From positions 1 through 24,129 of the IMG/VR virus record IMGVR_UViG_3300042352_000103: a stretch of DNA of 24,129 bases. The stretch is one strand, 5' to 3'. Every line of letters begins with the position of its first letter. Within the stretch, counting starts at the first letter, position 1. The position numbers were made by a program, and so were the translations under genes. The notes beneath the pieces were generated by a model. It was not told the origin of the DNA, made no database searches, and was given only the letters and a program-made list of their open reading frames with translations. This document shows, in pieces, positions 2,668-23,574 of the stretch. Source of the stretch: a virus.

Positions 2668-3270
2668 TTACTCTCCGTACTTTTCTGAGCCATAGCTACC
2701 TAAGCCATAGCCAATTGTTCTAAGTTCTGATGTTGAAGGAAGAGCATAGCTTTGGAATTGTGGGTCATTCACTAGCTCTTCAGGGTTTACTTGGTTGCAA
2801 TCAACTGTGACTACAGCCCAACGTTGCTCAAATGCTCCGCGAGGTAAAACACGTGTAGGAACAAACACTTCACCTCGGTATACAATTCTATCTTTAATAT
2901 GTGAGTTTGAATTGTATAAAATGGTAGGCATTAACTCGTTAACATCTCCTACGTTAATGACCAAGCGAAGAGTGTCAGCAACATAAAAACCTCGTTGGTT
3001 CATTATGTTAGTTCCACGAACAAACTGGGCCATAACTACAGGAAATTTAATTGGGTCTTCCCAACGCCTTCCTGTAGAAGTGCTGCTACTTGAGACGTCG
3101 TAAATATCATCAACAACAGTGGTGTAATTTTGTAGCAGGTACTCGTCGCTCCACTTCCACCAGTCAACTTTCATACCAACAAGACCGCCAAGGTCTTCTG
3201 ATATGCCTTCGTACATAGACTGGGCTTCGTAGTCTATGCTAAAGCGGCCCTCAAGTTTACCGCCGCGCAT
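2668..3270 (-). CDS. Putative virion structural protein
   Basis: This gene encodes 200 residues, with mixed alpha/beta composition and no signal peptide or membrane segment. Notable segments are MKVDWWKWSDEYLLQNY, a Ser/Thr linker (residues 79-86) and RGEVFVPTRVLPRGAFEQRW, which looks like a beta core; the end is Gly/Tyr-rich (GYGLGSYGSEKYGE). It sits between fibre genes and starts two bases after the stop of the S74 fibre gene. The position suggests a baseplate, neck or fibre-connecting part. I do not recognise a named family. Confidence 0.65.
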   Translation of the reverse strand: MRGGKLEGRFSIDYEAQSMYEGISEDLGGLVGMKVDWWKWSDEYLLQNYTTVVDDIYDVSSSSTSTGRRWEDPIKFPVVMAQFVRGTNIMNQRGFYVADTLRLVINVGDVNELMPTILYNSNSHIKDRIVYRGEVFVPTRVLPRGAFEQRWAVVTVDCNQVNPEELVNDPQFQSYALPSTSELRTIGYGLGSYGSEKYGE

Positions 3271-3272
3271 CG

Positions 3273-4322
3273 TTACTTGACCTTGTTTTCTACAGCTGCA
3301 AGACGGGTTGTTAGTGAAGAAATTAGCGCATCTTGGTGCTTAATTGCAGAAACAAGTGCAGAAACCATTTCGCCATAGTTAATGCCGTCGGGAACAACAA
3401 CGCCGTCTACAGTTGTGTAGTTTACAAATACTTTTAGGCTATCTAGTTGGTCTACTTCTTCAGCAATCAAACCGCCGTATGTACGGGCATTTGCGTCATC
3501 AGCAACTTCACTCTTTAGACGGAAGGTCTTTGGAACAAGATTAAGAATATCGTTGTAAGGGTACTGGGCGTCTTCAATATCTTGCTTATATCGTTCAGAT
3601 GAAGTTGTGCGAACAAGGTTACCTGAGTTATCAAAGGTGGCAGTTGTTGACCCACCACCAGCAAGTGCGGTTCGAGTAATTGAGCCATCTGTAGCAAAGG
3701 TACCTGTAGATGTAATTGAAGCTACAGTTCCTGGGGTAGCTGAGCCAGTGCTTCCACCTGGCCCTACGTTGTTCCACTTTTGTATGTATGTAGTTCCGCT
3801 AATTCTTCCTGAGTAAAACCATTCATTTCCGCTAGTAGTTGCCGTTCCGCTAGTTACCGATGCGGATACTGTAAATGAAGGGCTGCCACCACTTGTTACT
3901 GCTGTAACAGTTCCAGTTAGATTGTACGCAGACGAACCGCCGCTAAATCCTGCAACAGTAACTACATCATCAACTGCTGGTACGTTTACCGCGTAATCTC
4001 CAGTAAACTGTCCCGTAGTAGCAACGCTGTAAGTCACTACGCTACCTGTGCTAGAAGCACCTGTAATCTTTTGTAGTTTAAAACCTGAACGTACAGTTAC
4101 TGGTGTGTCTGTAAGATTAGTTGCCAAAATGTTTTCAAAAGTATTTGCGCCTTTAAGCGGAGCTTGGTATCCCAAAGAAGTCCACGCGGTTGAGCCGTCG
4201 CCAACCTTTAGTCGACCAGTGTCTGATTCAAAACCTGCTTCACCTACAGCGAGGGTAGGGTTAGCAGATGTCCAGGCGCTTGCTGTGCCTTGACGTAGTT
4301 GGATTAGGGAATCTCTGGCCAT
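3273..4322 (-). CDS. Tail fibre protein with C-terminal S74 chaperone
   Basis: This gene encodes 349 residues. Residues 1-53 form a small domain (LIQLRQGTASAWTSANPTLA, then GRLKVGDGSTAWTSLGY) like the N-terminal domain of major tropism determinant-type fibres. Residues about 88-168 are a beta-rich Ser/Thr/Gly module. Residues 241-349 are a peptidase S74 intramolecular chaperone: SSERYKQDIED with the expected self-cleavage serine at 242, YGGLIAEEVDQL, NYGEMVSALVSAI and a closing coiled coil. In this family the chaperone trimerises the fibre and then cuts itself off. AGGAG precedes the ATG by about six bases. Receptor binding is inferred from family and position. Confidence 0.88.
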   Translation of the reverse strand: MARDSLIQLRQGTASAWTSANPTLAVGEAGFESDTGRLKVGDGSTAWTSLGYQAPLKGANTFENILATNLTDTPVTVRSGFKLQKITGASSTGSVVTYSVATTGQFTGDYAVNVPAVDDVVTVAGFSGGSSAYNLTGTVTAVTSGGSPSFTVSASVTSGTATTSGNEWFYSGRISGTTYIQKWNNVGPGGSTGSATPGTVASITSTGTFATDGSITRTALAGGGSTTATFDNSGNLVRTTSSERYKQDIEDAQYPYNDILNLVPKTFRLKSEVADDANARTYGGLIAEEVDQLDSLKVFVNYTTVDGVVVPDGINYGEMVSALVSAIKHQDALISSLTTRLAAVENKVK

Positions 4323-4361
4323 TATGTCTCCTATAAGTCTTCTTTAATTGTAGGGCCAATC

Positions 4362-4508
4362 TTATTCAGATAGAGCCTGAACTTGAGCTTCTAGCTCTTC
4401 TACCTTGGTTACAAGGGCTGTTAAGATGTTGAACGCTTTCTCAATACCAGTACCATTAGCAGTGCCCTCTTCTTCCCAAGCATCAAGAATGTTTTTAATT
4501 TCTTCCAA
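4362..4508 (-). CDS. 48-residue coiled-coil protein, TTG start
   Basis: This short frame starts at a TTG at 4508, with GGGAG ending six bases upstream, and ends with TAA at 4362-4364. There is no in-frame ATG or GTG; a TAG lies four codons upstream of the TTG. Residues 1-14 (MEEIKNILDAWEEE) and 24-47 (KAFNILTALVTKVEELEAQV) are helical, and the second has heptad spacing like the closing coil of the S74 fibre next to it. It lies between two fibre genes. It may be a fibre-assembly helper or a small trimerisation piece. The reading frame is convincing; the function is not known. Confidence 0.65.
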   Translation of the reverse strand: MEEIKNILDAWEEEGTANGTGIEKAFNILTALVTKVEELEAQVQALSE

Positions 4509-4520
4509 GATAATCTCCCA

Positions 4521-5675
4521 CTATCCCCATGAACCAATGGTGGTAACTGCTTCAGCACCAAGTTTAGTGACTTTTAAATACGAACCTGAGTTTACAACAG
4601 CAGTAAGGTTTCCTGATGTAGCACCAGTTAGGGCAATTCTTATTGTAAAGTTACCTCCAGTAGTAATTCTGGTAGTACCTTTCATAAGTGCCCTAACGTA
4701 GTTAGTTGTTCCAGTACCAATAGTAACTGTGTTAAGTGCAGGAAAGGTGGTTGTTCCAGACCTACGAACACCTGAAGTAGCTGCCGCGTTTGATAGGACA
4801 GTAGTGCTTGTAGAGTAATCGTAGTAAAGATAGGTTGCAGAGGGAGTAGCCACGCTCGCTGCAGAACCTGGTGTAATAATTGCTGTAGCAGGAGTTCCTG
4901 TTGTAGCTGTTCCATTTAATGTTAGATATAGAACCATTTCAAGGTCATATGCGGCACCGCTTTCTAAAGAAAGCCCGTTTGTTCCAAATGCGCTAATTGT
5001 TGTAGACGCTCCAGGAGAGACGGTGGTTGTACCGCTGTCTGCGTTCAACATGTACATAAATGGTAAAGCAAGGTTTGTTGCAGCACCACCTGTACCACTT
5101 GGTATATCTATATAAAAACCTCTAGCAGAGCCGCCTTGCTCAAAAAAACGTAGTCTATCCTGGTATACGTCAATTGTAACTCCACCAGTAATGGTTGTAT
5201 TTGTTACGGCTTTGTTGAGGAAGATTTCTCCGCCTTCATCTCCAGAAGACGCAGTTACGCTAATCTTTCCAGGAAAAGAAACTGTACTACCAGAAGCACC
5301 AATAGCCATAGTTGTTGCTGCTCCACCAATGTTTAGAGTGGTAGCAGTTGCGTTAATTAGATTAAATGTTGTTTGGTTAGTTAAAAGGTCTCCACCATTA
5401 ATACTAATGTCCCCACCAGTAGACAGCTGATTTGATGAAGGGTTGTAGATTAGGCCAGCGTCAGTACCAAGAGACTGGACGCTACCATCATTAGCGGCTA
5501 CGAACACAGGGTAAAAAGAAGCGTTTGTAGACACAGAGGTAGTGTCCACAGTTACTGCTTCTGTAGCCTTAGCTACACTCAAGTTAGAAACAGTAGTGGT
5601 TGAGGTTACAGAAAGCGGGGCAGTGCCTTGCGGCACGGCAGTTAAATCAATTGGTGTTAGATTTTTTCTAGCCAT
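4521..5675 (-). CDS. Tail fibre-like protein
   Basis: This gene encodes 384 residues, very rich in Thr, Ser, Ala and Gly. The start (MARKNLTPIDLTAVPQGTAP) is followed near residues 110-130 by TTLNIGGAATTMAIGASGST, a repeat type found in many phage fibre shafts. The C-terminal half looks like a beta-sandwich with segments such as LEMVLYLTLNGTA and GNFTIRIALTGATSGNL, and may be the receptor-facing head. No chaperone domain is present. The ATG lies in TAAAATG, immediately after the stop of the gene ending at 5677. A structural fibre is likely; the exact place on the virion is unknown. Confidence 0.75.
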   Translation of the reverse strand: MARKNLTPIDLTAVPQGTAPLSVTSTTTVSNLSVAKATEAVTVDTTSVSTNASFYPVFVAANDGSVQSLGTDAGLIYNPSSNQLSTGGDISINGGDLLTNQTTFNLINATATTLNIGGAATTMAIGASGSTVSFPGKISVTASSGDEGGEIFLNKAVTNTTITGGVTIDVYQDRLRFFEQGGSARGFYIDIPSGTGGAATNLALPFMYMLNADSGTTTVSPGASTTISAFGTNGLSLESGAAYDLEMVLYLTLNGTATTGTPATAIITPGSAASVATPSATYLYYDYSTSTTVLSNAAATSGVRRSGTTTFPALNTVTIGTGTTNYVRALMKGTTRITTGGNFTIRIALTGATSGNLTAVVNSGSYLKVTKLGAEAVTTIGSWG

Positions 5676-5676
5676 T

Positions 5677-6951
5677 TTATCCCGTGATAACTACTCGATA
5701 TGTTCCTGAAGTAACTGTTGATGCTGCATTCCATGATAGTAGAACGTCGTTAAGAGTCAGGGTAAACCCGTAATTGCTTGTAGCAGTTGAGGCGTTGTTA
5801 ATGATTTCAATGTCAGGCTCTACCAAATAGTTGGTGCCTGTAGTGGAATCCACTCGGAACATTTGCACGGTAAGCTTCTGTAGAGAGCTCTCTAGAGAGT
5901 GGGTTGCAGCAGGAATTCTCCAGTAAGCAACTCCGCCAGAAGGAGTAATTGAGCTGTTAGTTGTAGAGTACACACCAATAGCTCCGAGGTTTGTACGTGC
6001 CTCGCCAGCAGTAGCGGCATTTGTTCCACCATTAGCGATTGGAACAGTGTCAATGTCAAGAGTATTACCAGTCTTGGTGAGGCCAATACCTGCGGTTACT
6101 TGGCCAAGACCAGTAAACTGCGTAAATGTAAGTGCAGTAGTTCCTACGGTGATTGTTCCGTCGTTAGTTAGTGTCCAACCACTGTCTGCTTGTGTATTTC
6201 CTTTTTCAACAAAAACTGCAAAACTAGAGGTAAGCTCAGCATCAGTGTCTGCGTCACTTGAGCGAGCGTACGAGTAGTTAGGGGCGGAATAACTTACAAG
6301 ATAAATACCGTTCTGGGAACCTGTGCTCTGGTCCTTAACAAGAATTCGGTCTCCAGCTGCAACAGAAATTCCATCCAAAGTTAAAGGAGTAGAAGATGTG
6401 CTTAGGGAAACGTTAGTTGTTGTAGCCAACTGAACTGACTGCTTCCAGTCAATTCCCACAACGGCGTTATCTACATACGCCTTATTTGCGGCATCTGTAC
6501 TAGAAGACGGGGTTGCTACGTTAGTAATACGTTTGCTAGCAACGTCTACGGTTCCAGTTCCATTTGGAGCTAGGTTAACGTTAGTGTTTGTACCGCCAGC
6601 GGTAAAGGTTAACGCACCAGTTCCTGTAATAGAACCAGTAGTTGTTCCTGTACCACCATTTGCTACAGCTACAGTTCCGCTGACGTTACCAGCGTTACCG
6701 CTAATGCTTACCCCAGCAAGGCTTGTAATCGTGTTACTTCCCTGGCTAAGAGAAATTTCTGTAGTTCCAATAAAGAAGGTGTCATCTTGGTTAGCAACAG
6801 TCTTAGTTGCAGATGCTCCCCGAAGCTTAAGGTGGTCTGAAGCGTACCACAAGTTACCAGCAATAGGGCTTCCAGGCGCAGAGTTAGAAATAACAACATT
6901 GATGAGCTGATTGTTGCTCAGGTTAATGTTGGTCAAGAATGTTCTAGACAT
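5677..6951 (-). CDS. Tail fibre-like protein
   Basis: This gene encodes 424 residues. The first 60 residues (FLTNINLSNNQLINVVIS, then PGSPIAGNLWYASDHLKLRG) and the segment DAANKAYVDNAVVGIDWK near residue 160 are hallmarks of phage fibre proteins. A globular domain follows (ILVKDQSTGSQNGIYLVS, then EKGNTQADSGWTLTNDGTIT), then IANGGTNAATAGEARTNLGA, another common fibre linker. The final 90 residues are likely a beta domain (SLQKLTVQMFRV and a strand-rich end). A weak GGAAG precedes the ATG. It probably forms part of the same host-recognition apparatus as its neighbours. Confidence 0.8.
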   Translation of the reverse strand: MSRTFLTNINLSNNQLINVVISNSAPGSPIAGNLWYASDHLKLRGASATKTVANQDDTFFIGTTEISLSQGSNTITSLAGVSISGNAGNVSGTVAVANGGTGTTTGSITGTGALTFTAGGTNTNVNLAPNGTGTVDVASKRITNVATPSSSTDAANKAYVDNAVVGIDWKQSVQLATTTNVSLSTSSTPLTLDGISVAAGDRILVKDQSTGSQNGIYLVSYSAPNYSYARSSDADTDAELTSSFAVFVEKGNTQADSGWTLTNDGTITVGTTALTFTQFTGLGQVTAGIGLTKTGNTLDIDTVPIANGGTNAATAGEARTNLGAIGVYSTTNSSITPSGGVAYWRIPAATHSLESSLQKLTVQMFRVDSTTGTNYLVEPDIEIINNASTATSNYGFTLTLNDVLLSWNAASTVTSGTYRVVITG

Positions 6952-6960
6952 GTGTACTTC

Positions 6961-7914
6961 CTACGATAAATAGGCGTATCCAGAATACGCCTCAGACAGT
7001 GTCACTACTACTTGTGTTGCACTTGTATATTCTACCGTACCTTCCAACACATTGCCGTTGGAATCAGTAGTAGTTACATTTGGAAAAAATGGAAGACTGT
7101 GGTTAATAGTCCACGTTGTGGCTTGAGAGTTTTGTGTAAATTTTAAATACGTAATACCTGATGTATTTTTCCAATAACCAAGAGTTGAGTCATACGTAAT
7201 TACATCACCATTAGCTGGGCTAGTAATACTTACGTTGTGTAGTTCGTCCAGTTCCCATCCATTGGATATGTGCACAAACACTTCGCCATTAGTACTTTTT
7301 TTAGTTACGACACCCATGTACACAATATGGTTCGGTGCCTGTGGTTTATTAGCAAGACCAAAAACAACGCCACCAGGAGTAGTAGGAGATAGCCAAACAG
7401 GCTCACCAGCGTCTGTTCCTGACGTGTCTACCCCGTCTACAATACCGCTATTTACAACATACCCAGTCGCATTGTCTGCAATATTGTTTTCTACAAAGCC
7501 TAGTGTTTGAGCTGAAAGTTGGTCGTTAGTTGCTTGGGCTTTATCAACTAGGATGTTTGTACCGTTAGACCCAGACGTGTACACAACTGTACCTTTAGTT
7601 AAAGTTGCACCTGTAGTGTTGCGCACTAGATGCTTTAGCTGAGTAGCAGAAGACGACGCACCTGTAGCATCCGCCCAAGCGACATCGTAATTTGTAGAGG
7701 AAAGCTTAGTAAGTACTTGACCAGAAGTTCCTCCAGCAGGAAGTCCAGTTGCTCCTTGGTATGCTAAGGATTCCCAAACCGTAACGCCGTCACCAATTTT
7801 AAACTTATTAGTGTCTGTTTCTACACCAAATTCGCCAGACGCAAGTATTGGGTTTACGGCAGTCCAGGTGGCCGCAATGTCTCTGCGGTTTTGTATCAAA
7901 GTTTTTCTTGGCAT
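6961..7914 (-). CDS. Tail fibre protein, Mtd-type N-terminal domain
   Basis: This gene encodes 317 residues. Residues 1-53 match the first 53 residues of the S74 fibre at 29 positions when I align them by eye, so the two share a duplicated N-terminal domain that probably fixes both fibres to the same site. Residues 57-84 hold LPAGGTSGQVLTKLSSTNYD, a common fibre motif. The middle (TLTKGTVVYTSGSNG, DAGEPVWLSPTTPGG, GEVFVHISNG) resembles a collar domain seen in other fibres. The end is a short beta domain (TWTINHSLPFFPNVTTTDSN). AGGA precedes the ATG by about eight bases. Confidence 0.8.
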   Translation of the reverse strand: MPRKTLIQNRRDIAATWTAVNPILASGEFGVETDTNKFKIGDGVTVWESLAYQGATGLPAGGTSGQVLTKLSSTNYDVAWADATGASSSATQLKHLVRNTTGATLTKGTVVYTSGSNGTNILVDKAQATNDQLSAQTLGFVENNIADNATGYVVNSGIVDGVDTSGTDAGEPVWLSPTTPGGVVFGLANKPQAPNHIVYMGVVTKKSTNGEVFVHISNGWELDELHNVSITSPANGDVITYDSTLGYWKNTSGITYLKFTQNSQATTWTINHSLPFFPNVTTTDSNGNVLEGTVEYTSATQVVVTLSEAYSGYAYLS

Positions 7915-18497: not shown

Positions 18498-19058
18498 CTA
18501 TTTTGCTTTTGGAGCTCTTGGAGCTCGAGTAGTCTTTGCAGCAGGTTTAGCGACAGCAGGCTTATCAGCGTCTTTAGCTCTAGGCGTAGGAGATGGTTTA
18601 GGTGCAGAAGTTTTAGTTCTTGCGCTTCTTGTGGGAACCTGCGCATTTTTAGGCTGTCGGTATACCGCTACAGCACGAGCAGCTGCCCTACCTTCAATTT
18701 GAGCATTTGCAATTTCAGTTGAGGTAAGATTTGCAAGATGCTTTGTTTGAGGTATTCGGCCGTCCGCCTCTGCAAACTTAACGTGGTCGTAGGAAGTCTT
18801 TTTAGAAGCAGCAATCTTTGCTTTTGCAGACGCTTTCTCCCTAGCCTCTTTAGCAGTTGCAAGGTCGGCAGCTTTAGTTTTTGCTTTCTTTTCAGAAGCA
18901 GCTTTGTTTATTGCTTTCTCAACTTTTTTAGCTTTTTCTTTGTAGGCGGCATCTTGTGCGCCTGAAAGTTTGGATAGTGCGTTAAGAATAGGTCTTTCAG
19001 AACCAATAGGTCTAATTCTGTTTTCATCAAACGTGGGGTCGATTACGTAATCACTCAT
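18498..19058 (-). CDS. Lysine/alanine-rich protein with histone H1-like tail
   Basis: This gene encodes 186 residues. After a folded-looking start (MSDYVIDPTFDENRIRPIGS), residues 35-90 are a long Lys/Ala/Glu helix (KAKKVEKAINKAASEKKAKT). A middle part (VKFAEADGRIPQTKHL, then TEIANAQIEGRAAARAVAVY) may be a small helical domain. The last 45 residues are Lys/Pro/Ala-rich (TPRAKDADKPAVAKPAAKTT), resembling histone H1 tails. Binding to DNA or to acidic partners is an inference from charge. It overlaps the preceding membrane-protein gene by four bases (ATGA). It may be a virion DNA-binding protein or small-terminase substitute, but there is no direct evidence. Confidence 0.75.
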   Translation of the reverse strand: MSDYVIDPTFDENRIRPIGSERPILNALSKLSGAQDAAYKEKAKKVEKAINKAASEKKAKTKAADLATAKEAREKASAKAKIAASKKTSYDHVKFAEADGRIPQTKHLANLTSTEIANAQIEGRAAARAVAVYRQPKNAQVPTRSARTKTSAPKPSPTPRAKDADKPAVAKPAAKTTRAPRAPKAK

Positions 19059-19402
19059 CGAAGCTTTTCCTCAATTTCCTCAAACCGCTTGTTTCCTTCA
19101 TCAAGTCTCTCAAGGATTCGTTTTTGTGTCTGCTCTATCCTTTTAACAGAGTCTTTCATGGTAGAGCCGCCATTGTGCTTAAGCTCACCATCAATATTGT
19201 TAAGCCGCTCCATAACACCAGGAACGCGGTCTCTACCTGGAGAAGCTTCTTCACCAAACCAGTCAAGAACAAACATGTTCAAGGAGTCTAGGAGATTCTT
19301 AGTTTTTTTAACTATAGGATTAACTATTTTGTATATAACTCCTACAGCACCCCCAATAGAAATAATAGCTGCAGACCACATTAAAATATCTTGAGTAATC
19401 AT
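19055..19402 (-). CDS. One-helix membrane protein with coiled coil (holin-region type)
   Basis: This gene encodes 115 residues. Residues 8-27 (MWSAAIISIGGAVGVIYKIV) are a membrane helix at the N-terminus, followed by a basic stretch. WFGEEASPGRDRVPGVMERL and DGELKHNGGSTMKDSVKRIE follow, then a coiled coil to the end (KRFEEIEEKL). This arrangement resembles the DUF2746-type membrane proteins found beside endolysin genes of actinophages. The 'PGVMERL..ID.ELK.NGGST.KD' part is one I recognise from such phages. It may be a holin, an antiholin or a holin partner. It overlaps its neighbours by four bases on both sides. Confidence 0.75.
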   Translation of the reverse strand: MITQDILMWSAAIISIGGAVGVIYKIVNPIVKKTKNLLDSLNMFVLDWFGEEASPGRDRVPGVMERLNNIDGELKHNGGSTMKDSVKRIEQTQKRILERLDEGNKRFEEIEEKLR

Positions 19403-19584: not shown

Positions 19585-19964
19585 TACTTTGTTTCAGTAA
19601 GCTCTTCGTCGTCGTCGTCTAGGTCGTCTTCATCGTCGTCTAGGTCGTCAATGTCGCCAAAGTCGTCTAGCTGAGCTGTGTCCTTGGCTGAAGTACCAAG
19701 TGCTTCCTTAATATCCTCATTGTTTCCAGCTTGTTTTGCAACAGCGGCACGGAAACCCTTCTCGATATCTTCATCAGAAATCATGGCGTCCCAAGCAAGT
19801 TGGACACCAAAGAAGATGATGATTGATGAGAATACTGTTGCAACACCAATGAAACCACCAGCAACCCATCCAACAGATGGACCACCAACGGCGGCACCTG
19901 GGATGAATGCAAACATGACTACACCGATAGAGCGGATAAGTACGTTCTTTAGTTTATTCAGCAT
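19584..19964 (-). CDS. Holin candidate with two membrane helices and acidic tail
   Basis: This gene encodes 126 residues. Two hydrophobic helices are visible at about 8-28 (LIRSIGVVMFAFIPGAAVGG) and 32-58 (GWVAGGFIGVATVFSSIIIF). The C-terminal 28 residues hold 18 Asp or Glu (LDDFGDIDDLDDDEDDLDDD and on), probably facing the cytoplasm. Holins commonly have charged cytoplasmic tails, and this gene overlaps the M23 endolysin gene by 11 bases, the usual arrangement for a lysis pair. A poly-acidic tail is less usual, because basic tails are typical. Its function in pore formation is inferred. Confidence 0.75.
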   Translation of the reverse strand: MLNKLKNVLIRSIGVVMFAFIPGAAVGGPSVGWVAGGFIGVATVFSSIIIFFGVQLAWDAMISDEDIEKGFRAAVAKQAGNNEDIKEALGTSAKDTAQLDDFGDIDDLDDDEDDLDDDDEELTETK

Positions 19965-20487
19965 TCTTTACTTCTTTCTTAACTGCAGGAGCAGCGGCTA
20001 CAGGAGCAGCTGGGGCTGCCGCAGCAGCTTTTGCTTTTTCCTTGGCGCGAGCTTTAGCCGCAGCTTTCTGCTCTACCATCTTCTTCTTAATGAATGCGTC
20101 CGCGTCGTAGACCTTACCAGAAAATACTGCGTTCTTGTCAGTACCTAGTGTGAAGTGCAAGTGCACACCACTGCTGTATTTACCAGTTGTTCCAGCTCCA
20201 CCAACTACGTCGCCACCCTTAACTTGGGTGCCAACTTTTAGTGGGCTCTGCTTGTTGAGGTGGCAGTATCCGAAGAACTTTCCACCAACTTTGAGAACTA
20301 CTACCCAACCAATGGCGTCACTCCACTGATTGATTACAATTTCTCCATTGTTTACTGCATAAAGTTTTGTTCCAGCTTTAAAGCCATTGTAGTCGGTGCC
20401 GCGGTGACCGCGTGGGTGCCACTCGTCTACTACTCCAAATTTTGGACCGTAATTGAATTTTCCCTGCAAGGGCATTTGCCAAGCCAT
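19954..20487 (-). CDS. Endolysin, M23 family peptidase
   Basis: This gene encodes 177 residues. The M23 (lysostaphin-type) zinc peptidase fold is visible: H28 and D32 in HRGTD, H76 in YCHLN, and H109/H111 in VHLHF. These enzymes cut peptide bridges in peptidoglycan. There is no signal peptide, so release needs a holin, which the next gene may supply. Residues 133-177 form a Lys/Ala/Pro-rich tail (KAAAKARAKEKAKAAAAAPA) in place of a usual wall-binding domain. AAAGGA precedes the ATG. The tail may bind acidic wall polymers or the acidic tail of the adjacent membrane protein. Confidence 0.88.
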   Translation of the reverse strand: MAWQMPLQGKFNYGPKFGVVDEWHPRGHRGTDYNGFKAGTKLYAVNNGEIVINQWSDAIGWVVVLKVGGKFFGYCHLNKQSPLKVGTQVKGGDVVGGAGTTGKYSSGVHLHFTLGTDKNAVFSGKVYDADAFIKKKMVEQKAAAKARAKEKAKAAAAAPAAPVAAAPAVKKEVKNAE

Positions 20488-20520: not shown

Positions 20521-20688
20521 TTATTCTTTTGGGTTACGCAGTCTGAACGTTGCCGCCCAAACTACAAGTGAGCCAATAATGCACCAGCCCACAATTTCTT
20601 TAGCAGAGCCTTCTAGAACTACCCAAGCAACAAACATGCCTAGGAGGGTCCAAAGCTGGCCTACAATATCGTTAAAAAAATCTTTCAT
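20521..20688 (-). CDS. 55-residue two-helix membrane protein
   Basis: This short frame begins at the ATG at 20688, overlapping the PA14 gene stop as TAATG, and ends with TAA at 20521-20523. Residues about 10-27 (QLWTLLGMFVAWVVLEG) and 32-49 (IVGWCIIGSLVVWAATF) are hydrophobic helices, with a basic end (RLRNPKE). Its place just upstream of the M23 endolysin makes it a second holin or antiholin candidate. Its coding strand, coupling and hydrophobicity support it despite the small size. Confidence 0.75.
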   Translation of the reverse strand: MKDFFNDIVGQLWTLLGMFVAWVVLEGSAKEIVGWCIIGSLVVWAATFRLRNPKE

Positions 20689-22457
20689 TAGTTTATCTTT
20701 CTGATAGATGCTGCACTTACTGTGGTGGTAGTCGTAACTGCACTAACCGCAGCGCCAACTGCGACAATCGCTGAAACAACTACCTTTTTTGATTCTTCAC
20801 GTACTTTTGGAGACATATCTGCACCAACGTTTCCTACGAAGTTAATTGCGTCAACTACTCCAGAGGCAACGGCACCAAGTACAGGGACTGCTGCCAAAGC
20901 TTCATCAATAACAATGTCATCGGCCTCGGCAGCTACCCACAGCTGCTCAAGAGCTTGCTCATACTCTGGAGAGCCTTGTTCTGCTGTAGCTAGGGTTTCA
21001 ATAGCTGCTTCCTTTAGTTCAGCAACTTGTTCGGTAGTCAAAGTTGTTGGGTCAATTGTTGTAGGGTCTACTTCAGTAACATCCACTGTGGGTTCTGGTG
21101 TTGGTTCTGGTGTAGGCTCAGGCGTGGGTTCAAGAGTTGGCTCTGGTGTTGGTTCGGGAGTTGGCTCTGGAGTAGGCTCAGGCTCTGGTTCTGGCTCAGG
21201 TTCAACAGGAGTTAAGTCAATAACCGTTTGAGTCAGCACAGGGATTGCAGCTACTGCCTCGTTTAGCCTAGTCTCTGCAGTTTTTTGCTCAGACAGTGCA
21301 TTGTCGTATGCGGTTTGTGCCTCTGATTCTTTTGCTAAGTTTTGATTTAGAATCTCTAACAAATCAGGATTACGGATTAAAGGAGCCTCAGCACCTGGAA
21401 CTAGTTCAGTTGTGTAGTAGGTTTCCGTTACCATGTTGGTCACTTCTTCCCAGGTGGTAACTTCTTCCCAGACAACTACGTCTTCCCAAGTAGTGACTTC
21501 TTCGTAAGTTACTACAGTTTCCCAAGTAACAATCTCTTCATAGGTTGTTTCAGTAACTGTTGTTTCACCAAACCAACTTGGTGGGACAATAGTAAACGGG
21601 GTGTCGGCTGTTGAGTAGTATAGCCAGACGTTGGCTCCGCCACCGTTTTCGTAGTAGTACAAAGTAGTTGGGTAAAGAATGCCTGCTCTAATCCAAACAG
21701 GTTCGGAGATGCTGCCGCCGCCACCTTTGTCATACCAGTCATTGATTAGACTCATACCAGCGATGTCTAGCTTTACTCCGTCATCACCTGGAGCGTAAAA
21801 GCTGTACCATCCATCTACTGGAACCATGATGTTTCCCTCAAAAGCTACAAGGACATCTTCGTACCGCCCAGAGTTAAGAATTTGGCCTCCACCCCATTGG
21901 TAGTCAATGTTTGGAACATTCTCAGTAGATACTGGCGTCTCGTTTGCAGTAGGCAAAGGCGGAGCATTGTTATAGCCGAGACGATTGTACGACTTGGCAG
22001 TAAGTCCTCCAGGAACCACTGTGGTAATGGTGTTCTCAACTATAGTGGTATGTGGAACATGAGTTACTACTTCTACAGTTTCAGTGTGACTCACCGTTTC
22101 AATACGAGAAACTAACTCTGTTTTCGGCACTAGCTCAGTCTTTGGAACCAAACGAGTGTGCTCTACCTCTTGAGTTGGGTGAACCCAAGTAGGGTCTGAG
22201 ATTAGATTTGTATCGTAGTTTTCTTGAGCAGTTGTCGTTTCTTGTTGAGCTAGCTGTAACGCAACCCTAGTATCCTCTACTGTCAAATCGACAGATTGTT
22301 TGTGTTGGGTAGCATCAATTACCTCTTGTTCTCCTAGAGCAAGAGCTTCCTGTGCCTCTTCATATGTTTGGGCGTACGCTGATGTTTCAGATAGTAGCGG
22401 GAAAAAAGCTACGAATGTTATTCCGATTGATGCTGCGAGTTTACGCAGTTTGTTCAA
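20688..22457 (-). CDS. Secreted PA14-domain protein with repeat arms
   Basis: This gene encodes 589 residues from a TTG at 22457, with AAGGAG about five bases upstream. Residues 1-29 are a signal peptide cut after AYA. A helical region follows at 31-85, then a Val/Thr/Glu arm (99-147), a PA14 domain (148-296) with the D225-D226 site in APGDDGVKLDIAG, a second Val/Thr/Glu/Trp arm (298-352), another helix (365-405), an EPTP repeat (417-457) and a C-terminal part with a hydrophobic stretch near 557-575. PA14 domains of this kind bind sugars through calcium at the paired Asp. Export plus a C-terminal hydrophobic segment suggests display on the host surface, such as an adhesin or an exclusion factor; a virion role is also possible. 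Confidence 0.8.
   Translation of the reverse strand: MNKLRKLAASIGITFVAFFPLLSETSAYAQTYEEAQEALALGEQEVIDATQHKQSVDLTVEDTRVALQLAQQETTTAQENYDTNLISDPTWVHPTQEVEHTRLVPKTELVPKTELVSRIETVSHTETVEVVTHVPHTTIVENTITTVVPGGLTAKSYNRLGYNNAPPLPTANETPVSTENVPNIDYQWGGGQILNSGRYEDVLVAFEGNIMVPVDGWYSFYAPGDDGVKLDIAGMSLINDWYDKGGGGSISEPVWIRAGILYPTTLYYYENGGGANVWLYYSTADTPFTIVPPSWFGETTVTETTYEEIVTWETVVTYEEVTTWEDVVVWEEVTTWEEVTNMVTETYYTTELVPGAEAPLIRNPDLLEILNQNLAKESEAQTAYDNALSEQKTAETRLNEAVAAIPVLTQTVIDLTPVEPEPEPEPEPTPEPTPEPTPEPTLEPTPEPTPEPTPEPTVDVTEVDPTTIDPTTLTTEQVAELKEAAIETLATAEQGSPEYEQALEQLWVAAEADDIVIDEALAAVPVLGAVASGVVDAINFVGNVGADMSPKVREESKKVVVSAIVAVGAAVSAVTTTTTVSAASIRKIN
21087..21209 (-). repeat. EPTP-coding tandem repeat
   Basis: A run of repeated 6- and 12-base units codes the Glu-Pro and Thr-Pro string at residues 417-457 of the PA14 protein. 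It is an in-frame coding repeat acting as a stiff linker and can be expected to vary in length between relatives. Confidence 0.8.
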
Positions 22458-22465
22458 TCGTCTCC

Positions 22466-22786
22466 TTAATATGCGGCAGTGCCGCCTACGCTCAGACCAG
22501 GTTGGATTCCGTCAGCCATTCCAGCTTCCATAGCCACAATTTCTGAGCCTGCTTGGGGGTTCTGTAATGCACTCAAGTTAGAACCTGGCTGCAAAGTACG
22601 TGGGTCATAGTTTGTCATACCACCAATAACGGATGGGTAGCCTTGCCAGTACCAACCCAGTCCCTGGCCACCGTATGTAGTACCACTGGTTGCTGCTCCG
22701 TTACCCTGAAGATTTTGGCCAAACGTCCCACGAGGACCACCAAACATTCCAGTGGTTTTGTTCTGTAGTTTACGTTCTTGCTGCAT
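22466..22786 (-). CDS. Gly/aromatic-rich protein of unknown function
   Basis: This gene encodes 106 residues. After a short basic start (MQQERKLQNKTTGMFGGPRG), the middle is rich in Gly, Tyr, Trp and Asn (TTYGGQGLGWYWQGYPSVIG). The end has Pro-, Gly- and Ala-rich parts (VGGTAAY). There is no membrane helix or Cys. It joins the gene before it by TAATG and ends eight bases before the PA14 start. This style of sequence is common in flexible virion proteins; that is only a guess here. Confidence 0.7.
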   Translation of the reverse strand: MQQERKLQNKTTGMFGGPRGTFGQNLQGNGAATSGTTYGGQGLGWYWQGYPSVIGGMTNYDPRTLQPGSNLSALQNPQAGSEIVAMEAGMADGIQPGLSVGGTAAY

Positions 22787-23031: not shown

Positions 23032-23574
23032 TTACCAGTTCACACGAATAAACGTTGCGTCACTGTGTTTAAAAGAGGGGTCGTCCAGACTGATAACTTC
23101 TGTAGATGTTCCTGGGCGGAACCCTGCGTGAATTACCTTGCCGTTACCGATGTAAATAGATGCGTGGTAGTAAGACGAGGAGCCTTTATAACTCCATACC
23201 ACAATGTCACCAACTAGTGGGGTTTGCACCTGGTGCCCGATGTTTCCTTGCTTATTAGCGGAGTGGGGCACTTCTATACCCAACTGCTCGTAAAACCATA
23301 CGACGAGACCTGAGCAGTCCCATCCTGATGGTGTAGAGCCTGAGAATACGTACCAGGTTTTACCTACACGGCTATTCAGTTGGGCGGTTACTGTATTTAA
23401 TTGTTCCTTCTTGGAGTTCTTTACGGCGTCTGCCACAATGTCATCCAAGAAGGTTGACTCTTCCACTCGAGTCTGAGTTATGGCTACTGCACTAGCCTTT
23501 GGGTCTGCTGTAGCACTGCTGCTACAACTTGTCATTACTAGTGCGATAGCACCGATTGCAATGAACCTCTTCAT
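23032..23574 (-). CDS. NlpC/P60 peptidoglycan hydrolase, probable lipoprotein
   Basis: This gene encodes 180 residues. Residues 1-17 are a lipoprotein signal (AIALVMTSC, lipobox M-T-S-C with Cys17 as the attachment site). Residues 60-180 form an NlpC/P60 domain with catalytic C87 in WDCSGLV, H137 in HASIYIG and H149 in VIHAG. Such enzymes cut gamma-glutamyl peptide links in peptidoglycan. Unlike the M23 endolysin it should be exported by the host and tethered outside the membrane, so it may loosen the wall before lysis, act in entry or alter the surface. It lies between two terminators as its own unit. Confidence 0.87.
   Translation of the reverse strand: MKRFIAIGAIALVMTSCSSSATADPKASAVAITQTRVEESTFLDDIVADAVKNSKKEQLNTVTAQLNSRVGKTWYVFSGSTPSGWDCSGLVVWFYEQLGIEVPHSANKQGNIGHQVQTPLVGDIVVWSYKGSSSYYHASIYIGNGKVIHAGFRPGTSTEVISLDDPSFKHSDATFIRVNW

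Follow-up and report, generated by a model that had tools for sequence, protein, structure and literature searches.

A Two-Gene Phage Cassette Predicted to Display Exchangeable Lectin-Like Tips, Possibly for Adhesion to Neighbouring Host Cells

In this study, we analysed an exported PA14 protein encoded in a virus record of 24,129 bases (the whole stretch, hereafter the window) together with its relatives in other viral contigs. The gene is one half of a modular cassette in which a constant anchor module and a small membrane partner are combined with tips that are freely exchanged between phages. Its product is very probably a surface-display protein, and the PA14 tip found in the window is probably a calcium-type lectin. 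Among the jobs that such a cassette might do, adhesion to neighbouring host cells ("sibling capture") appears the likeliest, and we propose it tentatively.

Architecture of the Display Protein

The display gene occupies the minus strand, a point left unstated in the initial annotation, which had delimited the open reading frame correctly (20688-22457) but treated it as a single phage gene, missing both the partner at 20521-20688 and the exchangeable nature of the tip. The features of the locus are as follows.

22461..22467, minus: Shine-Dalgarno site AAGGAGA before the TTG start (sequence; non-ATG starts are the rule in relatives)
20688..22457, minus: gene of the display protein (589 aa from a TTG start), encoding the signal peptide, the stalk, the PA14 tip, the linker and the membrane anchor
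22371..22457, minus: signal peptide, residues 1-29, ending AYA before QT (sequence; hydrophobic N-terminus in relatives)
22209..22364, minus: stalk helix 1, residues 32-83 (AlphaFold model, pLDDT mostly 82-96)
22011..22175, minus: N arm, 55-residue beta strand of the ribbon, residues 95-149 (model; arm-length covariation)
21564..22010, minus: PA14 tip domain, about residues 150-298 (Pfam PF07691; structural matches)
21780..21785, minus: Asp225-Asp226, counterpart of the D-cis-D calcium pair (invariant in 19 relatives; aligned to the DD of sugar-binding MhPA14, 6M8M)
21645..21647, minus: Asn271 of the invariant loop ENGGGA, counterpart of the calcium/sugar-loop Gln of MhPA14/MpPA14 (alignment)
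21402..21563, minus: C arm, second beta strand of the ribbon, about residues 298-352 (model; arm-length covariation)
21213..21368, minus: stalk helix 2, residues 364-415 (AlphaFold model)
21063..21212, minus: Glu/Pro/Thr-rich linker, residues about 416-465 (sequence; low pLDDT, as expected if disordered)
20691..21062, minus: constant C-terminal anchor module, residues 466-589, NVGADMSPKVREESKK-VVVSAIVAVGAAVSAV...IRKIN (conserved with different tips)
20521..20688, minus: partner, 55-aa membrane protein with two transmembrane (TM) segments, start overlapping the display stop in TAATG (neighbour-ORF clustering, conservation)
19954..20487, minus: M23 peptidase, lysin candidate, directly downstream of the cassette (profile search)
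19055..19402, minus: holin-like gene (phrog_15431 holin, E=8e-6)
23032..23574, minus: NlpC/P60 hydrolase, upstream of the cassette (profile search)

The protein opens with a Sec-type signal peptide, MNKLRKLAASIGITFVAFFPLLSETSAYA followed by QT, with cleavage expected after AYA, and a hydrophobic N-terminal core is present in essentially all relatives with an intact 5' end. Towards the C-terminus, the linker is followed by the anchor module, in which a hydrophobic segment at about residues 559-574 precedes the basic IRKIN. Signal peptide, Glu/Thr/Pro linker, and C-terminal hydrophobic segment had all been proposed beforehand, and each was found. A Pfam match to Trypan_PARP/TonB_N was rejected, as it corresponds to the low-complexity linker. 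The overall layout is kept in at least 80 independent viral contigs, a conservation far beyond chance.

AlphaFold2 was run on 19 window and locus sequences. In the resulting model of the window protein, helix 32-83, strand 95-149, the PA14 domain (152-297), strand 298-352, and helix 364-415 follow one another, the two helices (52/52) and the two strands (55/55) being of equal length, with the linker and the C-terminal part at low confidence. Among 18 distinct relatives, the lengths of the two arms covary almost perfectly (38/44, 43/50, 50/55, 56/62, 62/68, and 92/98 residues; Spearman 0.996), mostly in increments of six residues. Since the modelled strands are equal and the arm lengths change in lockstep, the two arms are read as the two strands of one beta-ribbon carrying the tip. 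The models thus show a stalk made of a helical hairpin plus a beta-ribbon whose two strands have 55 residues each, with PA14 at its tip; the two repetitive arms of the initial annotation do exist (95-149 and about 298-352), yet as a single paired structure and not as separate elements.

The tip matches the PF07691 profile (E=3e-6; 27.5 bits against a curated cut-off of 24), and in a structure search with the model its beta-sandwich (residues 145-302) matched solved PA14 domains at Z 11-17, which is what structure prediction, suggested earlier for this region, has yielded. The best match, structurally and in sequence, is RsgI3 (6QE7; Z 17.4, E=4e-28); others are the sugar-binding PA14 of MpAFP (5J6Y/6XA5; Z 14.6) and Flo1/Flo5/Epa1 (Z 11-13). 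The D-D pair claimed from the first reading is D225-D226, invariant in 19 relatives together with N271-G-G-G-A and W241-x-D-K-G-G-G-G. In MpPA14, the Ca2+/sugar site is formed by Asp110, Asp111, Gln156, Gly157, and Asp159, the D-cis-D pair holding the sugar-binding calcium with Gln156 and Gly157 of loop 11 (PMC8092209), and in MhPA14 by Asp136, Asp137, and Gln182 (PMC6650083). In the alignment with MhPA14 (6M8M), D225 and D226 fall on its D-D pair and N271-GGGA on its Q-GGA loop, so that the Asp pair and the loop residue of a predicted Ca2+-lectin site are both in place in this comparison of residues. Given this match to the MpPA14 and MhPA14 sites, calcium-dependent sugar binding is the likely activity, and the tip is probably a lectin of the calcium type. 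Throughout 33 contigs searched for a second PA14, the domain was found only in the display gene; the possibility that the phage's own fibres carry another PA14 as a shared receptor binder was rejected on this basis.

Partner Gene and Exchangeable Tips

Clustering of the neighbouring ORFs of 79 relatives recovered a small gene directly downstream of the display genes, overlapping or abutting their stop. The window copy encodes MKDFFNDIVGQLWTLLGMFVAWVVLEGSAKEIVGWCIIGSLVVWAATFRLRNPKE. Its conservation is strong (10 invariant columns in 32 sequences); against Pfam and PHROG, it matched no family, holin families included, and only the two hydrophobic segments stand out. The same anchor motif (GADMSPEVREESEK-hydrophobic-RRK) is present in the ORF upstream of the partner in 75 of 79 loci examined from the partner search described below, and exactly one partner was found per contig in all 45 whole contigs tested (45/45). 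The display gene is thereby half of a two-gene cassette, for which a partner search of IMG/VR returned at least 596 loci/contigs.

While the anchor is constant, the tip is freely exchanged between phages. Classified by motif, the tips of the 79 partner loci include 15 window-type PA14, 19 variant PA14, 11 'TTNSVITFG', 10 'GWDNSNQFF', and 4 SUEL-like domains, the remainder being unclassified or truncated. Pfam supports PA14 in L085 (3e-10), FN3 in L097 (6e-7), and, at the cut-off, a SUEL lectin in the tip of L141 (3e-7); several tips matched no known fold, and the structure model of L102 (tip B) reached a pLDDT of 48. The exchange is best seen in two colinear phages, L066 and L127, in which the more than 3 kb flanking the tip on each side are 80% and 95% identical in DNA. 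Their display proteins are 78% shared over the first 41 residues and 100% over the last 103, and the 470-500 bases of the tips are unrelated: the two phages differ by a clean natural tip swap. Their putative tail-fibre tips (phrog_863 family) also mostly differ past a conserved N-terminus, the neighbouring genes being 73-83% identical; with regard to tip type versus fibre type, this is one suggestive pair, the loci being too few for a wider comparison. Among putative tail-fibre proteins of this family (L201:3074-3877, L204:19161-19928, and L127:329-1111), two close phages have only a short N-terminus in common, and their tips have been exchanged in the manner of the display-protein tips. In 20 loci (L028, L030, L058-L071, and relatives), the display gene is immediately preceded by a gene for a serine recombinase (cluster c9), which suggests that some carriers may be temperate or that the recombinase helps tip exchange.

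Start Codons and Frameshift Subgroup

Start codons were chosen by the same scoring for display genes, neighbours, and partners. The best display start is ATT/ATA/ATC in 37 of 70 genes, TTG in 21/70, and ATG in only 4/70, whereas ATG is the start chosen for 167 of 231 neighbouring genes and 49 of 54 partners. The ATT/ATA/ATC/TTG starts stand behind strong Shine-Dalgarno sites (e.g. L012:524, L108, L131, L004:1660, and window position 22457). At most 42 of 121 distinct ORFs show no ATG/GTG/TTG from the in-frame stop up to the first stretch of strong hydrophobicity, an upper estimate since in L005, L008, L014, and L023 the scan ended before the true signal peptide; L012, L108, and L131 are clear cases in which only ATT is left as a start. 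In Streptomyces, ATT in infC and GTC in sigR are starts repressed by IF3 (PMC5472188), so low or regulated synthesis of the display protein is plausible. On a practical level, ATT starts of this kind reveal genes mis-started by standard gene callers.

In the window, the anchor is in frame and the gene has no frameshift signal. Searching with alignment A4 brought out a subgroup (36 loci) whose display ORF terminates ahead of an anchor encoded in the -1 frame, and the last codons of this ORF carry a frameshift signal (L165-L197, and also L095, L098, L101, L110, and L116). A canonical slippery heptamer forms the last seven bases before TAA in 30/30 closed genes (TTTAAAA in 17, CCCAAAA in 12, and AAAAAAA in 1), compared with a background of 0.0026 per position; across the subgroup, it switches kind yet remains slippery. 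Five bases after it, a stable stem is predicted in 29/30 (-16 to -24 kcal/mol; z about -3 in several). Covariation in this stem is weak because it barely varies and is also coding; the stem was judged from folding energies and from the divergent L196, where it is kept with a different sequence. The natural reading is that a programmed -1 frameshift would yield the anchored form of an otherwise secreted lectin, in which case the subgroup would hold a natural switch between the secreted and anchored forms of one protein.

Lysis Neighbourhood and Proposed Role

The initial annotation had placed the gene beside lysis genes, and the linkage is real: of the 68 loci whose sequence extends far enough, 60 have a lysis gene within 3 kb downstream, often about 150 bases past the partner. 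A holin-like gene is present in 50 of the 68, and CHAP or M23 endolysins in others; the neighbouring 'holin' call is based on phrog_443 (E=2.7e-4) and position, with no Pfam support. The tail-fibre-like genes of the window are separate (2668-7914), and the display protein matched none of the tail PHROGs. That the layout is one of a cell-surface adhesin and not of a normal fibre, as first suggested, agrees with the signal peptide, the anchor, the PA14 fold, and the location of the fibre-like genes elsewhere.

We suggest that the display protein would be exported by Sec and held in the membrane of the infected cell by its C-terminal hydrophobic helix, with the two-TM partner. The helical hairpin and beta-ribbon, on their Glu/Pro linker, would carry the predicted calcium-type PA14 tip outward, and we estimate from the length of the stalk that its reach may be enough to span a Gram-positive wall. 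As a weak start codon is found in a lysis region, the protein is probably made in few copies and late in infection, its synteny being what points to late expression. The tip would then hold on to surface glycans of adjacent cells belonging to the same host, and through such sibling capture progeny freed at lysis could meet a new host in dilute water. A role of this kind was proposed for the curli operon of a pelagiphage (PMC7029224). Adhesion as the purpose is a tentative choice, favoured because of the long outward stalk, the low-looking synthesis, the lysis position, and a PA14-curlin homologue in the pelagimyophage HTVC008M.

Close behind, though on its own rather less likely than not, comes receptor masking or superinfection exclusion, to which the observations behind the adhesion reading apply just as well. 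Here the tip would bind the receptor glycan of the infected cell itself, blocking rival phages and keeping progeny from sticking to the dying cell or to its debris, with tip swaps tracking receptor changes. An exported surface protein with exchangeable lectin-like tips in a lysis-linked position would suit this well, as would the soluble lectin that the frameshift subgroup would also release, and precedents exist in Llp of T5 (PMC9586334) and streptococcal Ltp (PMC3952083). Yet weak start codons suggest too few copies to cover many receptors, and masking in cis needs no long outward stalk. The concurrent difference of putative fibre tips (phrog_863) in L066 and L127 is in keeping with masking, but one phage pair is an anecdote, and the wider set of tips and fibres had too few loci.

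The tip might instead sense a surface ligand and signal via the stalk to the partner, acting as holin, antiholin, or channel, and so set the timing of lysis. That the partner is a 55-aa two-TM protein beside holin-like and endolysin genes, that the tip finds its closest structural match in the extracellular PA14 of the anti-sigma factor RsgI3, and that low-copy starts fit a sensor all speak for such a regulator; however, a separate holin-like gene is usual (50/68) and the partner matched no holin family, making this reading improbable. Very unlikely, finally, is a virion component (decoration or receptor-binding protein) with a merely signal-like N-terminus. Swappable carbohydrate-binding tips are typical of receptor-binding proteins, and one related phage gene, annotated only as hypothetical, lies near structural genes; yet a signal peptide and a membrane anchor are general in the display family, the window has its tail-fibre-like genes apart from the cassette, and the genes linked to it are lysis genes and a membrane partner.

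Relation to Known Systems

The PA14 fold, lectin-tipped adhesins, and phage surface proteins are already known kinds. With the RTX adhesins MpAFP/MpPA14 (Marinomonas) and MhPA14 (Marinobacter) and the yeast flocculins Flo1/Flo5 and Epa1, the display protein shares the PA14 fold (Z 11-15), the D-D pair, the Asn/Gln of the sugar loop, and the placement of the domain at the distal end of an elongated adhesin. Unlike them, it is phage-encoded, has a C-terminal hydrophobic anchor with a partner and a hairpin stalk, and carries a tip replaceable by unrelated domains; the marks of RTX adhesins (type I secretion C-terminus, RTX repeats, tandem extender) were not found in its sequence or in the Pfam scan. 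The extracellular PA14 of RsgI3 (6QE7), although the best match to the tip, belongs to a cellular sensor and has no GGGA sugar loop where that of the tip aligns. Myxobacterial cells recognise one another through TraA/TraB, a surface PA14 protein working with another envelope protein; unlike the cassette, TraA/TraB are cellular, located in the outer membrane, and have an unrelated partner.

Phage genes for exported envelope proteins that act on the host surface are likewise familiar (Llp of T5, Cor of T1, and Ltp of TP-J34), yet these are small lipoproteins without stalk, lectin tip, partner, or tip exchange. The curli operon of HTVC008M offers the parallel of a lytic phage of a streamlined plankton bacterium with an exported PA14 protein, but there PA14 and curlin repeats form one protein, encoded beside CsgB/F/G, and no such stalk, anchor module, or partner was seen. 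The HTVC008M gene itself (L082, 7845-9170), coding for a signal peptide, PA14, and curlin repeats by CsgB/CsgF/CsgG, is a candidate sugar-binding subunit of phage curli, whose function has been called unclear (PMC7029224).

No description of the cassette was found in the papers (a search that left most subscription journals outside its reach), families, and phage records consulted; what we did not find described is the combination of a constant anchor, a partner without family, and interchangeable tips, linked to lysis, with ATT starts and a frameshift-controlled anchor. We put forward, with some reserve, an undescribed "grappling" cassette of the infected cell, in which a constant stalk, anchor, and two-TM partner would present swappable sugar-binding tips under ATT/TTG initiation, a -1 frameshift at the last codon would set the ratio of secreted to anchored protein in a subgroup, and recognition of neighbours would be tied to lysis in the most abundant freshwater actinobacteria. 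With the cassette on at least 596 viral contigs and no partner in any of the phage records searched, these viruses possess in it a major trait that has so far escaped description. Should the tips bind glycans of the host, its surface sugars could be read from their repertoire, and it would become possible to test how phages reach new hosts, or keep from losing progeny, in dilute water.

Carriers and Hosts

Freshwater actinobacteria are among the most abundant cells in fresh waters, and hardly any of their phages have been cultured. The cassette carriers appear to be viruses of such plankton actinobacteria. The terminase and major capsid protein of the window are nearest to those of the Streptomyces phages BRock and LuckySocke (52% and 60-62% identity), and WhiB, an actinobacterial marker (PMC10202952), is encoded in 42 of 45 cassette contigs, pointing to actinobacterial hosts for these relatives; a search for WhiB in the window fragment found none. 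The cassette occurs in at least three terminase lineages, one of them cluster c17. A display gene in the cultured relative LuckySocke was considered and rejected: the gene before the peptidase lacks a signal peptide and resembles a beta-helix spike in its sequence, and no copy of the partner was found.

Among 50,697 phage records, the partner is absent and HTVC008M gives the only match to the display protein. The initial annotation had looked to host genomes for the origin of the gene; with the partner as query, 84,980 bacterial and archaeal species genomes gave a single contig, itself phage, and a host-derived gene or lysogenic conversion was rejected on that account. Thus, the cassette is viral and so far one of uncultured viruses. 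The single contig (L164, PACV01000075.1), from a Flavobacteriaceae MAG and likely misbinned, is a phage with a related cassette that carries a signal peptide, FN3-like domains, an acidic stalk, the partner, and a lysozyme-like gene. A second exported phage protein, for which no family was found (cluster c6; about 310-340 aa, with a signal peptide and a coiled C-terminus), is encoded near the terminase in 22 loci, for example L033:925-1920 and L020:3430-4458.
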